DNA from: Halostella salina | GTDB taxonomy: Archaea; Halobacteriota; Halobacteria; Halobacteriales; Natronoarchaeaceae | Direction: 5' to 3' | Length of the DNA: 64,000 nt | NCBI RefSeq assembly: GCF_003675855.1 | Contig: NZ_RCIH01000013.1 | Coordinates: 1-64,000, forward strand | Shown: positions 1,281-33,658 of the stretch, one piece after another | How positions within the stretch are numbered: the first letter of the stretch is position 1 | How the letters are laid out: every line of letters begins with the position of its first letter | The notes under the pieces: generated by a model | Told to the model about the DNA's origin: nothing | Databases searched by the model: none | The model's input: only the letters and a program-made list of their open reading frames with translations | Position numbers and translations under genes: made by a program

Positions 1281-1685
1281 ATGTCCCGCTTACGGTCGGC
1301 GCTGGCGGTCGGCCTCTCGCTGCTGTTTCCCGGACTCGGCCACGCCTATCTGCGGCAGTGGGTGCGAGCGCTGCTGTGGGCCGCGCTCTCCGTCTCCGCG
1401 TCGGCGCTGTTGCTGCCCGAACCGGCCACGTCCGGCACGCTGCTGGAGCGGGCCACGGCGACCGTGCAGGCCATGTCGCAAACCGAGACGTTCGTCCTGC
1501 TCTCGATGAGCGTCTTCGCCGCCATCGACGCGTTCGTCATCTCGGTCCAGCAGGCGAACTACGACCCCGACGCGGTCCACTGCCCCAACTGCGGGAACGA
1601 GATAGACGAGGACCTGGACTTCTGTCACTGGTGTACCAGCCGGATCGGCGAGCCGGGCGACGAGGCCGAGGAGTCGGCGACGTGA
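1281..1685 (+). CDS. membrane protein with C-terminal zinc ribbon
   Basis: A 134-residue haloarchaeal protein. The N-terminus (about 5-45) has the LFPGLGHAY pattern seen in small membrane proteins, and a second hydrophobic segment lies near residues 70-92. The C-terminus holds a rubredoxin-like zinc ribbon with two CxxC knuckles (CPNC and CHWC, about residues 99-117). This matches uncharacterised haloarchaeal families of the DUF7575 kind, from memory. The stop codon sits at the left end of a 78-bp inverted-repeat element separating it from the convergent dehydroquinate synthase gene. Function unknown. Confidence 0.7.
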   Translation: MSRLRSALAVGLSLLFPGLGHAYLRQWVRALLWAALSVSASALLLPEPATSGTLLERATATVQAMSQTETFVLLSMSVFAAIDAFVISVQQANYDPDAVHCPNCGNEIDEDLDFCHWCTSRIGEPGDEAEESAT

Positions 1686-1686
1686 T

Positions 1687-1764
1687 AGTGTTTCTTCTCA
1701 CTGGTTACCAGTAGTCGCCCCCACCGGTACTGGCGACCACCGGTAATTGGCGAGAAGAAACACT
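1687..1764. repeat. 78-bp inverted-repeat element, copy 1, in a convergent junction
   Basis: Perfect 13-bp terminal inverted repeats (agtgtttcttctc at 1687-1699, gagaagaaacact at 1752-1764; extendable to 15 bp) enclose a 52-bp core. The core contains two accggta boxes and two gaccac-type boxes. A second copy with the same arm and core lengths lies at 9312-9389. The element fills almost the whole gap between two converging genes, so it could be a bidirectional terminator as well as a small mobile or palindromic repeat. Confidence 0.75.
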
Positions 1765-1769
1765 ATGAG

Positions 1770-2945
1770 CTATTTCTCGATGATGCTCTCCTCGACGGCC
1801 TCGCCGAAGTGCCGGGCGGTGTCCTCGTAGTACACCCGCACCCGGTCGCCCTCCTCGAGGTCGGTGACGGCGGTGCGGCCGTCCTCCGTGGCGACTTTCA
1901 CCGTCTCGGCGTTCTGGATCAGCGTCTCGAAGCGGTCGCCGTTGTCGGCCTCCAGCTCGACGCGGAACATCGGCCGCTGCTCGATCTTCGCCCGCCCGAC
2001 GACCGCCTCGCGGGTGTTGCCGTCGGTGTCGACGACCTGCACCTCGTCGCCACTGCGCAGTTCCGAGAGGTACTTCGTGCCGCCGTCGGGCGTCCGGACG
2101 TACGCGTGGACCGCGCCGGCGTTGACCCGGAACGGGCGCGAGGCGACGTACGGCGACTCGGCGGTCTCGGCGTGGACGAAGACGAGGCCGCGGGACATCG
2201 AGCCGACGAGCATTCCCTCGTCGTGGTCCATCAGGCTCCCCGTGTCGACGCAGACGCGGTCGGCGCTCCCGGCGCGCTCGACGGTGCGGACCGTCGCCGA
2301 CTCCAGGTCGAGCGTCTCGCGCTCGGCCTCGTCGCGGACCGCGACCGTCTCCCGGATCTCGTCGGGGTCGTCGCTGTCCAGCAGGACGGCGTCGGCCCCG
2401 AGTTCCAGCGTCTCGTAGGCCGTCTCGGCCTCCTCGGCGCTCGTGACGCCGGCGATCAGTTCCGTCTCCGAGCCGATCCGGGCGATGAGGTTCTCCAGCG
2501 GGATGATCGTCCAGTCCTCGCCGACGACGATGGTGTAGTCGGCCTCGGTCGCCGCCGCCTCCGCGAACGATTCGTAGTCCTCGTCGAAGATACGGACGTA
2601 CGCGCCGTCGGCCCGCTCGTCGTCGCGCCGGAGCGTCGACAGGTCCGCCGACCCCGAGAAGTCATTGGGCAGGTCGACCGTGCCGTCCCCCTCGCCGTCC
2701 TTGCCGACGACGTAGGCGTCGGCCCTCGCGCCGCCCTCGCTCTCGGGGTCGTCGATCACGTCCACGTCGCCGCCGGTGACGAAGGCGGCCACGTTCACGT
2801 CGCCCAGTTCGCGGACGCGCTCCACGTCGTGGTCGTCGACGAGTACCCAGTCCACGCCGGACTCCAGCCCGGCCGTGATCCGCCGCCGTCGCGCCTCCCA
2901 GTCGCCGACGCTGCCGTCGGCCTTGAGCCACACCGATCGTGTCAT
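1770..2945 (-). CDS. aroB': 3-dehydroquinate synthase II (archaeal type)
   Basis: Catalyses NAD-dependent oxidative deamination and cyclisation of 2-amino-3,7-dideoxy-D-threo-hept-6-ulosonate (ADH) to 3-dehydroquinate, replacing the DAHP-based route. At 391 residues it matches the archaeal DHQS-II family in length. The start [10 protein letters not shown] and the C-terminal half (VCVDTGSLM, then [13 protein letters not shown], then [13 protein letters not shown]) are characteristic. It is the last gene of the minus-strand aromatic cluster and works directly after the ADH synthase encoded two genes upstream. Its stop codon abuts the 78-bp inverted-repeat element. Confidence 0.92.
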
Positions 2946-8782: not shown

Positions 8783-8854
8783 CTCCCATCGGAACGGACG
8801 ACCGCCGCCGCGTCCGTGCGAACGTTCAAGTCCGACACGCCCCTCCGCCGAGGC

Positions 8855-9313
8855 ATGGACGACGCCGGCATCTACGCGCGGGAGTCGCCGTACCTCGACA
8901 GCCACGTGCAGCTGGGGATCGCAAGCGGCCGCGTCGTGAGTGTCTCGTTTCCCGAGACGCCCGAGGACAACGCCGACCCCGACCACGACCTGCTGGACCG
9001 GGTGTTCGCCTATCTGGAGGGGACTGAGGACGACTTCGCGGACGTGCAGGTGGCGCTGACCGTTCCGACGGACCGACGGAAGGTGCTCGAAACCGTCCGG
9101 GACCTGCCGTACGGCGAGAGCGTGACCGTCGCGGCGCTGGCGCGGATGACCCCCGGGATCGACGCCGACGACGAGGAGGACCTGCGGCTCGTCCGGACGG
9201 CGCTGTCGGACAACCCCGCGCCGCTTTTCATCCCCGACCACAGGGTGAACGACGGGCCGAGCGCCGCGCCGCCCGCGGTCGAACAGCGGTTGCGGTCGCT
9301 GGAAGGGCTGTAG
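8855..9313 (+). CDS. MGMT (alkylguanine alkyltransferase)-fold protein lacking the active-site Cys
   Basis: A 152-residue homologue of O6-alkylguanine-DNA alkyltransferase. The C-terminal helix-turn-helix part is recognisable (LPYGESVTVAALARM, then VRTALSDNP). The catalytic motif, normally IPCHRV, reads IPDHRV, with Asp128 in place of the acceptor cysteine, and no other Cys exists in the protein. It therefore cannot act as a suicide methyltransferase. Alkyltransferase-like (ATL) proteins, which flag O6-alkylguanine for nucleotide excision repair, are a precedent, although they usually carry Trp or Ala there. The ATG at 8855 is chosen over a GTG at 8816. Confidence 0.8.
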   Translation: MDDAGIYARESPYLDSHVQLGIASGRVVSVSFPETPEDNADPDHDLLDRVFAYLEGTEDDFADVQVALTVPTDRRKVLETVRDLPYGESVTVAALARMTPGIDADDEEDLRLVRTALSDNPAPLFIPDHRVNDGPSAAPPAVEQRLRSLEGL

Positions 9314-9389
9314 TGTTCGCTCTCGCCACGTACCGGGGACCACCCGCACCGGTACCGGGGACCACCGGTACCCAGTGAGAGCAAACACT
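9312..9389. repeat. 78-bp inverted-repeat element, copy 2, in a convergent junction
   Basis: Terminal repeats agtgttcgctctc (9312-9324) and gagagcaaacact (9377-9389) pair with one mismatch and enclose a 52-bp core, exactly the arm and core lengths of copy 1 at 1687-1764. The core shares the accggta and ggaccac boxes. Two of the differences between copies within the arms are compensated on the opposite arm, which supports selection for a folded structure. It again overlaps a stop codon and separates two converging genes. Confidence 0.75.
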
Positions 9390-9412
9390 GTGACCGGGGC
9401 GACGGTCGTCCG

Positions 9413-9769
9413 CTACGCTCCGATCCGCGGCCGGATGAACAGTTCGAAGGCGTACAGCGAGAACGCGGCGAGCAGGAGCAGGCTCACCGCGCCCTCGCCG
9501 AACGGCGGGGCGTCGACCAGGAGCAGGTACGCCTGCGCGAGCCCGGCGGCGGCGAAGAGCCCGCCCGACACCCGCATCCCACGCACGTCGGGGTTACGGA
9601 CGCGGAGCAGAACGCCGAACGCGACCATCACGAGCGAGAACGTCACGTCGGCGAACAGCGTCGCGGTCGGGTCGTTCGTGGTAAAAGCGTACCCCGCCGC
9701 CAGCAGGTAGACGATGGCGACGACGACGGTCAGCGCGCGCACGTCGACATCGTCGCCGATGGAGACCAT
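9413..9769 (-). CDS. small hypothetical membrane protein
   Basis: A 118-residue protein with four hydrophobic segments (about residues 10-28, 35-55, 65-85 and 90-110), short charged loops and no cysteines or catalytic motifs. It is convergent with the MGMT-like gene and lies just downstream of, and on the same strand as, the LonB-CPBP pair; the 48-bp gap allows read-through. I do not recognise a named family. Confidence 0.6.
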   Translation of the reverse strand: MVSIGDDVDVRALTVVVAIVYLLAAGYAFTTNDPTATLFADVTFSLVMVAFGVLLRVRNPDVRGMRVSGGLFAAAGLAQAYLLLVDAPPFGEGAVSLLLLAAFSLYAFELFIRPRIGA

Positions 9770-31304: not shown

Positions 31305-33658
31305 CGGAACTCGACGCCGGTGACCTCGAAACGCGCGCCGCCGTCGGTCGATTCGGTCGCCGCGACCGACCAGCCGTGCGCCTCCGCCACGTCGCGAACG
31401 ATCGCCAGACCCAGCCCGGTCCCGTCGTCGTCGGTCGTGTAGCTCCGCTCGAACACCGCCTCCTGATTTTCCGGCGGGATCCCGAGGCCGTCGTCGGCGA
31501 CGTAGAACCCGGTCGCCCCTGCCTCGCGGTCGGAACCGACCCGTTCGAGCGTGCCAACCCGGACGGTCACCGGCGGGCGCTGTGCCGGCCCGCCGTCCGC
31601 GCTCTCGGCAGACCGGTACAGCGGGGCCCCGGAGTCGCCGTCGGCCGGGGAATCCCCCGGCGAGCCGTGTTCCACGCTGTCCTGCCGAGCCTGCGAGGCA
31701 GGGCCCGTCGAACCATGTTCGACGGCGTCATCGGAACGCGACGCGTTCCGATTGCTCGTGGAACCGTGTTCCACGCTATCCTGCCGAGTCTGCGAGGCAG
31801 GGCCCGTCGAACCATGTTCGACGGCGTTCCGAAACAGGTTCTCGAACAGCTGGCGGAGCCGCGACCGGTCGGCGGCGACGACCGCATCCTGGGCCGTGAC
31901 CTCGAATGCGGCGTCGGCCGAGTCGATCCCGTCCCAGGCGTCCCGCGCAACGTCGGCCAGCCGCACCGGTTCGGGGTCGGTCACGTCCCGGCCGCTCCGG
32001 GCGAGTTCGAGGAGGTCGTCGACGAGCACCTCCATCCGGTCGAGCGCTTCGTCGACCTCCGCGAGCGCCGTCTCGTCGTCCGTCTCCCGGGCCACGTCGA
32101 GGTAGCCCTGTGCGACCGACAGCGGGTTGCGGAGGTCGTGGCTGACGATGTCGGCGAACTCGTCGAGCCGCTCGTTCTGCCGCGCGAGGTCGCACTCCCG
32201 TTCGGCCCGGGTCAGCGCGGCGGTCGCGTTGGCCGCCAGCACGGCAGTGAGCTGGACGGCCGTGTCGTCGCGACTGAACGGCTCCTCTGAACCGGCCCCG
32301 AGGACGCCGTACTCGCCCAGCGGGAACAGCGCGACGCCGCGGACCGGCGTCGACTCGTCCTTGAGGGCGCAGTCGGCGTCGTGGACGTTTTCGACGACCA
32401 GGCGCTCGCCGCGCTCGTACACCGTCCCCTGGAGTCCCTCCCCGACGGCGTACGAGGGGACGGGGTCGTACAGGTCGCGGAGTTCGTCCGTGGTGGCGAC
32501 CGGAACCAGCCGCCCGTCCTCGTAGGCGTGGATCCCGACGTACTCAAGGTCGAGGACCTCGCGGACCGCCTCGACCGTCCGTTCGCACACCGCTTCCGGC
32601 GTGCTCGCCCCCATGAGGTCGCGGCTGGCGTCCTGTATCGCCGCGAGCGACCGCTCCCGCTCCCGACGCCGGGTCACGTCGCGGAGAACGACGACCGCCC
32701 CCTTGTTGCCCGAGAGCGGCGTCACCCGGGAGTCGAAGGAACGGCGATCACCGTCGACTGCGACCGCCACCGCCTCGTCGTCGTGGGCGCTGTCGACATC
32801 GACCGCCGCGGCGATCGACGGGAACGCGTCCCCGAACCGCCCGCCGAGCGGCGCGGCGCGCGGCGACAGTCGCTCCGCCGCGGGGTTGACGTCGACGACG
32901 TACCCTTCGCCGTCGACGGCGACCATCGGGTCGTCCATCGTGTCGACGACCGCCGACCGTGCGACCGGGGAGCGGTCGAACAGCCCGTACCCGAACAGCG
33001 CCCAGAACACGACGACGCCCTCGACGATGAACGCGAAGGGCGTCAGGTCGAGTTCCGGGACGGGCGAGACGCCGGCGTAGTAGACGGCGTTCGCGGCCGC
33101 CGGCGGCAACGCCCCGGAAAGCACCAGCAACGACTGCTTCCGGTAAAGACCGGTCGACGCCGCCGCGACGCCCGCGATCAGCACGACGCCGGCGGCGATG
33201 AGCAGGTAACTGTACGCGACGCTGGCCCACCAGCCGGCGGCGTAGTCGACGACCAGCAGGCGGAACGACCCCCGGGTGACCATCTCCGGGGCCGACCAGA
33301 GGACGCCGCCGGAGCCGTTGGCGAGCGTGAGCGCCGCTGTGACCGCCGGCACCGCGTACGTCGCGGCGGCGAACCGTCGGGTCGATCCCTCGCCGTACTC
33401 GCTGTAGTCCACGGCGAACAGCAGCCACGTCGCTGGAACGAAGAGGAGCACCGCCATCCGGATCTGGAACCAGGGCAGCGCCCCGGCGACGTCCGTCGCC
33501 GCGAGTTCGGCCGCGAACGCCGCCAGCCAGACGGCGTTTGCCCCCATCATCGCGGCGAACGGCCGCGCTCCGCGGCGGTCGCGCCGCTGCCACGACAGCA
33601 CCGCGAGCACCAGCGCCACGCACGCCGCTACGCCGGCGGCGGCGGAGAGCGCGGCCAT
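31301..33658 (-). CDS. 7TM sensor histidine kinase with PAS and GAF domains
   Basis: A 785-residue membrane sensor kinase. An N-terminal 7-helix sensor (about 1-215) is followed by PAS (about 225-325; VVDTMDDPMVAVDGEG), GAF (about 335-490), HisKA (about 500-570) with the phosphorylated His in FADIVSHDLRNPL, and HATPase_c. The ATPase N-box (NAVEHGST) is followed by an insertion of about 65 residues in which VEHGS recurs four times before the G1 box (DDGLGIPP). No response regulator is adjacent, as is common in haloarchaea. The ATG at 33658 is preferred over a TTG 36 bases upstream. Confidence 0.88.
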   Translation of the reverse strand: MAALSAAAGVAACVALVLAVLSWQRRDRRGARPFAAMMGANAVWLAAFAAELAATDVAGALPWFQIRMAVLLFVPATWLLFAVDYSEYGEGSTRRFAAATYAVPAVTAALTLANGSGGVLWSAPEMVTRGSFRLLVVDYAAGWWASVAYSYLLIAAGVVLIAGVAAASTGLYRKQSLLVLSGALPPAAANAVYYAGVSPVPELDLTPFAFIVEGVVVFWALFGYGLFDRSPVARSAVVDTMDDPMVAVDGEGYVVDVNPAAERLSPRAAPLGGRFGDAFPSIAAAVDVDSAHDDEAVAVAVDGDRRSFDSRVTPLSGNKGAVVVLRDVTRRRERERSLAAIQDASRDLMGASTPEAVCERTVEAVREVLDLEYVGIHAYEDGRLVPVATTDELRDLYDPVPSYAVGEGLQGTVYERGERLVVENVHDADCALKDESTPVRGVALFPLGEYGVLGAGSEEPFSRDDTAVQLTAVLAANATAALTRAERECDLARQNERLDEFADIVSHDLRNPLSVAQGYLDVARETDDETALAEVDEALDRMEVLVDDLLELARSGRDVTDPEPVRLADVARDAWDGIDSADAAFEVTAQDAVVAADRSRLRQLFENLFRNAVEHGSTGPASQTRQDSVEHGSTSNRNASRSDDAVEHGSTGPASQARQDSVEHGSPGDSPADGDSGAPLYRSAESADGGPAQRPPVTVRVGTLERVGSDREAGATGFYVADDGLGIPPENQEAVFERSYTTDDDGTGLGLAIVRDVAEAHGWSVAATESTDGGARFEVTGVEFR
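31665..31827 (-). repeat. palindrome-rich coding repeats inside the kinase ATPase domain
   Basis: Two 64-bp direct repeats (31665-31728 and 31764-31827) differ at only 2 positions and have a 99-bp period, so the frame is kept. Each consists of short palindromes: gtggaaCACGGTTCCAC-type sequences encoding VEHGST, and cctgcc/ggcagg arms. A 19-nt palindrome with a single central base (31732-31750) lies in the spacer between them. They follow the native N-box, whose coding sequence is itself one of the palindromes. Confidence 0.85.

Follow-up and report, generated by a model that had tools for sequence, protein, structure and literature searches.

The window, that is, the whole stretch of 64,000 nucleotides of Halostella salina DNA analyzed here, carries two copies of a short hairpin element, each placed between a gene on the plus strand and a converging gene on the minus strand. 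The features at the two loci are as follows.

1281..1685, plus strand: upstream gene of copy 1, 134 aa, with a C-terminal DUF7575/DUF7577 zinc ribbon
1683..1685, plus strand: left 3-bp direct repeat TGA, which is the stop codon of the 1281-1685 gene
1686..1765, plus strand: copy 1 of the hairpin element, 80 bp, TAGTGTTTCTTCTCACTG...GGCGAGAAGAAACACTA (covariance model R1, E=1.5e-22)
1766..1768, plus strand: right 3-bp direct repeat TGA of copy 1 (target duplication)
1770..2945, minus strand: 3-dehydroquinate synthase II (PF01959), converging on copy 1
8816..9313, plus strand: upstream gene of copy 2, 165 aa, with a PF01035 alkyltransferase-like DNA-binding domain
9311..9390, minus strand: copy 2 of the element, 80 bp, in the orientation opposite to copy 1 (E=5.9e-18)
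9391..9393, plus strand: TGA to the right of copy 2
9413..9769, minus strand: gene converging on copy 2, 118 aa, no Pfam match

The original prediction had described a 78-bp inverted repeat occurring twice. Both copies were recovered, and their borders are slightly wider than claimed, at 80 bp each plus a 3-bp flanking repeat. The 13-bp arms were found as described. They differ at three positions, two of which are compensated, and the third gives C-A on the plus strand, equivalent to G-T on the minus strand. The palindrome spans nearly the whole 80 bp in both copies, and the arms of copy 1 are 35 nt long and 83% complementary. The two copies match at 59 of 80 bases when copy 2 is reversed and at 55 of 80 in the direct comparison. 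The hairpin energy gave z-scores of about -8.8 for copy 1 and about -4.7 for copy 2, and the core pattern had no match in 100 shuffles. At copy 1, an in-frame TAG of the element directly follows the stop TGA, and the gene at 1770..2945 has its TAG stop one base past the right repeat. Copy 2 has no intact duplication, the left repeat having been lost or changed (CTG at 9308-9310), and the TAG stop of its upstream gene (9311-9313) consists of the first three bases of the element. The Rfam search returned nothing above the gathering score; mir-3198, a microRNA model, matched far below the cut-off at 9313-9388 and 1688-1763. This is a chance hairpin match and a trap for automatic annotation. Elsewhere in the window, within 31660-31826, a stretch of about 60 bp ending in the palindrome CCGTCGAACCATGTTCGACGG is present twice, 99 bp apart.

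Approximately 16 clear copies were found by DNA search in the window's own genome. A covariance-model search for further copies had been proposed with the original prediction, and model R1, built from 15 own-genome copies, located 29 sites in that genome, 24 of them at E<1e-6. Model R2 (threshold E<=1e-6) detected the element in 41 of 77 genera of Halobacteriales, or 95 of 243 genomes, a patchy distribution; the E-values are rough, and the genome searches scored best candidates only. It was also present, with the same 3-bp repeats, in metagenome assemblies of Halococcaceae. Most copies are 76-82 bp long, and many have 14 of 14 terminal bases complementary. At both ends the sequence reads TA and then G, C or A, depending on the subfamily. 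L088 and L106, two copies from separate loci, do not differ at any of their 80 bp and are placed in opposite orientations with respect to the gene. The Halomicrobium genome G171 holds at least 40 copies that are 96-100% identical, indicating that the element moved recently.

Perfect 3-bp direct repeats flanked 98 of 123 copies, and 97 of these repeats were TGA or TCA and one was TAA. In a first set of 69 copies with recognizable ends, 46 had perfect direct repeats (TCA 27, TGA 18, TAA 1), and a perfect inverted 3-bp arrangement occurred only once. The set from G171, G102 (Halomicrobium mukohataei DSM 12286, NC_013201) and G111, which includes many young copies, gave perfect repeats at 52 of 54 copies, all TGA or TCA. 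The joined flanks of copies were searched in two congeners, G002 and Halostella pelagica (G004, CP040680), and contiguous matches were obtained, i.e., sites without the element plus 3 bp. At L090, the window's genome reads TTTCA TCA, the element, and TCA GCTCG; G002 reads TTCA TCA GCTCG, and G004 likewise lacks the element. Similarly clean empty sites were found in congeners for L095 and L098. At L106 the break lies exactly after the stop TGA, and in G002 some 29 more bases are missing as well. Among about 20 orthologous stretches examined, only one copy (L100) was clearly common to both species. A faint remnant lies at the G002 site orthologous to copy 1. At the site of copy 2, the G002 gene likewise ends in TAG and the element was not found. 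On a plasmid of Haloarcula sp. JP-L23 (L251, 2406-2568), two different copies lie head to tail with one TGA common to both, as if the target duplicated by the first copy had then served as insertion site for the second.

The element thus occurs in either orientation between 3-bp direct repeats that are nearly always TGA (TCA on the other strand), and congeners carry the empty site. A family of small non-autonomous elements was one of the two readings first offered for this locus, and it is upheld by the copy number, the 3-bp target duplications, the empty orthologous sites and the clusters of identical copies. We consider it likely, with a probability of roughly 85%, that the hairpin belongs to a family of MITE-like mobile elements of Halobacteriales that are about 80 bp long, non-coding and almost fully palindromic, and that duplicate TGA.

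The position of the element relative to stop codons was compared with expectation. In the first set, 36 of 47 TGA/TCA copies lie on stops, against the 15% expected if all intergenic TGAs are equal (p=7e-21), and TGAs within 60 bp downstream are much less used. In the G171, G102 and G111 set, 18 of 54 copies lie on stops (9% expected). Annotated plasmids of named species, including Natrialba magadii, Halococcus dombrowskii, Halobellus and Halomontanus, provided an independent annotation. On pHmuk01, PGAP stops coincide exactly with the ends of 9 of 14 copies, and over all annotated plasmid copies the TGA is the stop codon of the neighboring gene at 14 of 24. Also on pHmuk01 (L303, 24009-24209), the annotated hypothetical protein HMUK_RS17945 runs into an element copy; the end of this gene is probably spurious or altered. 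The target consensus, C-TSA-G (CTSAG), has A at -2 and C at +3 and approaches a dyad, and a target of the CTSAG type fits haloarchaeal gene ends. Stops were nevertheless over-used beyond this sequence preference (37 of 65 CTGA sites vs. 19% expected; 19 of 33 CTGAG sites vs. 28%), being used two- to three-fold above the prediction from target preference. We infer that survivorship accounts for the excess, although it could have other causes. In the open-access literature, we found no paper that describes elements of this type inserting at TGA or in stop codons.

Both window copies lie in convergent junctions, as the original prediction had noted, but this is not a trait of the family. Of 79 copies from 12 genomes, 46 lie in tandem, 20 in convergent and 9 in divergent junctions, 3 inside gene calls and 1 at an edge; gene calls outside PGAP records came from a codon-usage model caller and are approximate, and the expected window genes were recovered. 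Convergent contexts were not enriched among the 75 classifiable copies; the junction composition predicts 14.6, and 20 were observed (p=0.14). Specificity for convergent junctions was therefore rejected, and the proposal that the element lands safely between converging genes was not supported. One end of the element usually falls on a stop codon, and the element points either way relative to the gene about equally often (27 vs. 21).

The hairpin structure was assessed in 44 diverse copies, in which 93% of cells pair and double changes occur at 18 of 20 pairs. The covariation score was 0.604; shuffled pairings gave 0.186, and slid pairings reached no more than 0.133. Within genomes, an arm matches its own partner at 0.90 vs. 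0.79 for shuffled partners. The arm sequences drift, and the hairpin is kept intact by paired changes. This very strong covariation, the strong folding on both strands and the placement of copies directly 3' of stop codons would suit a bidirectional transcription terminator or a 3'-UTR RNA hairpin that is selected and was multiplied between genes. However, when RNA-level selection was sought, the coding strand showed nearly as many A-C (16) as G-U mismatches (18), and arm stability was equal between strands, so that the bidirectional terminator, the other reading first offered, gained no positive support. Moreover, the lack of convergent enrichment and the occurrence of divergent contexts speak against it, and the 3-bp target duplications and empty sites show insertion. 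We regard a selected terminator as very improbable; termination may be a by-product of the element.

The covariation had been taken as a sign of a selected hairpin. The covariation is borne out, but it does not by itself imply selection on an RNA hairpin. In some near-identical Halomicrobium copies, the central loop is inverted relative to the arms (L271 3731; L276, L287, L288, L289 3004), and in L262 and L263 a mismatch has turned into a perfect pair in copies that are otherwise near-identical. The loop inversions and the repaired mismatch are DNA-level hairpin events, and the retention of the hairpin during arm drift, together with the inverted loops, points to a DNA-level hairpin. The compensatory changes might stem from template switching (quasipalindrome correction), by which one arm is repaired from the other, and not from hairpin selection. 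This proposal addresses how the covariation arose and can hold together with the MITE-like mobile element. It agrees with the repaired pairs of L262 and L263 and with the inverted loops of L271, L287, L288 and L289, yet such correction would be incomplete, as evidenced by the core mismatches (ACTG vs. the opposite arm) that persist in most copies of the different families. We hold it to be possible, at somewhat less than even odds, and arm correction and hairpin selection can act together.

Several candidates for the mobilizing enzyme were considered. The DDE domains PF01609 and PF13586, two main ones of the IS4/IS5 type, are absent from the window's genome, no recurring gene family lies beside the copies as a candidate mobilizer, and no autonomous version was seen by terminal pattern or BLAST among the best-scoring candidates. 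The plasmid and phage matches included no version longer than the element itself, and a search for viral carriers gave one chance pattern match and no phage match. The IS1595 transposase on pHmuk01 was rejected as the mobilizer, being without matching inverted ends. Three IS200-type tnpA genes only were found in the window's genome (G000:C1:4362-4721, C12:48598-48945, C2:45628-45873); two of them carry in-frame stops, the C12 gene adjoins tnpB, and one Y1 gene is intact. This intact gene, a structure more conserved than the arm sequence and the hairpin-type inversions would all agree with a REP-like single-stranded DNA element moved by an HUH transposase (Y1, IS200/RAYT-type) that recognizes the folded hairpin, in which case only one of the two flanking TGAs would be target sequence, the other belonging to the element. 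However, Y1 genes are absent from the nearly complete, copy-rich genomes G074, G030, G211 and G062 and present in many genomes without the element, and no element copy was found near Y1 loci. IS200/Y1 as the sole mobilizer was rejected on these grounds. The occurrence of both orientations relative to TGA and the roughly palindromic target also fit double-strand cutting better, and we consider movement by an HUH enzyme improbable. The roughly palindromic target, the 3-bp duplication and the two orientations suggest a DDE enzyme.

For the MITE-like element that we favor, a DDE-type transposase supplied in trans would cut TGA with a 3-bp stagger. Where the TGA is a stop codon, insertion would duplicate the stop and leave the protein unchanged, and insertions inside genes would be lost by selection. 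Such survivorship, combined with the local sequence preference, would give rise to the residence at stop codons. The arms may stay complementary because the hairpin is recognized or copied as DNA, whether as a folded single strand, as a cruciform or through self-templated repair. A bolder proposal, which we think rather unlikely, is that order-wide archaeal mobile hairpins are recognized through their folded shape and not through the sequence of their ends, are moved by a novel enzyme and reach stops by more than the local sequence, e.g., by coupling to the end of translation or transcription. A mobile element of the favored kind would be tolerated in a gene-dense genome, the stop-codon TGA being duplicated without cost to the protein. 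A hairpin kept despite arm change raises the question of what is recognized during movement. Since the cultured Halomicrobium mukohataei holds many near-identical copies, the mobilizer and effects on transcript 3' ends are directly testable there. Annotators who assign haloarchaeal intergenic hairpins to terminators or small RNAs should know this family.

The TGA element shares with MITEs its short length, lack of coding capacity, terminal inverted repeats, target duplication, multiple copies and empty-site polymorphism. It differs in that no parent transposon was seen among the best candidates scored, its ends drift yet stay complementary, and it resides at stop codons. IS1031-type elements of the IS5 family make TNA duplications. 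A 3-bp duplication is also known for PIF/Harbinger (PMC2213677), to which the Tourist MITEs belong. A 3-bp duplication of the TNA type and a roughly palindromic target are common to these elements and ours, but the TGA element uses almost only TGA/TCA, and the window's genome lacks both of the above DDE domains. REP sequences are short extragenic palindromes whose ends often give flanking genes a TAG stop (PMC3733652). Unlike the REP/RAYT system, the TGA element has no one-sided GTAG or CGTC tag, has a symmetric 3-bp duplication and shows no link to a Y1 transposase. The PATEs of Haloquadratum, with near-terminal palindromes but neither terminal inverted repeats nor target duplication (PMC3119063), are likewise non-coding palindromic mobile DNA of haloarchaea, whereas the TGA element has both of these features. 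SMR-A and SMR-B of Haloquadratum walsbyi, reported in 2011, are 80-110 bp long with prominent inverted terminal repeats and many copies, are unrelated to known transposons and have an unknown mobilizer; HqIRS41 measures 80 bp (PMC3119063). The SMRs and the TGA element thus have size, inverted terminal repeats and many copies in common. As compared by description only, the SMRs are reported without target duplication and in other mobile elements (PMC3119063), whereas the TGA element duplicates TGA and does so mostly on stop codons.
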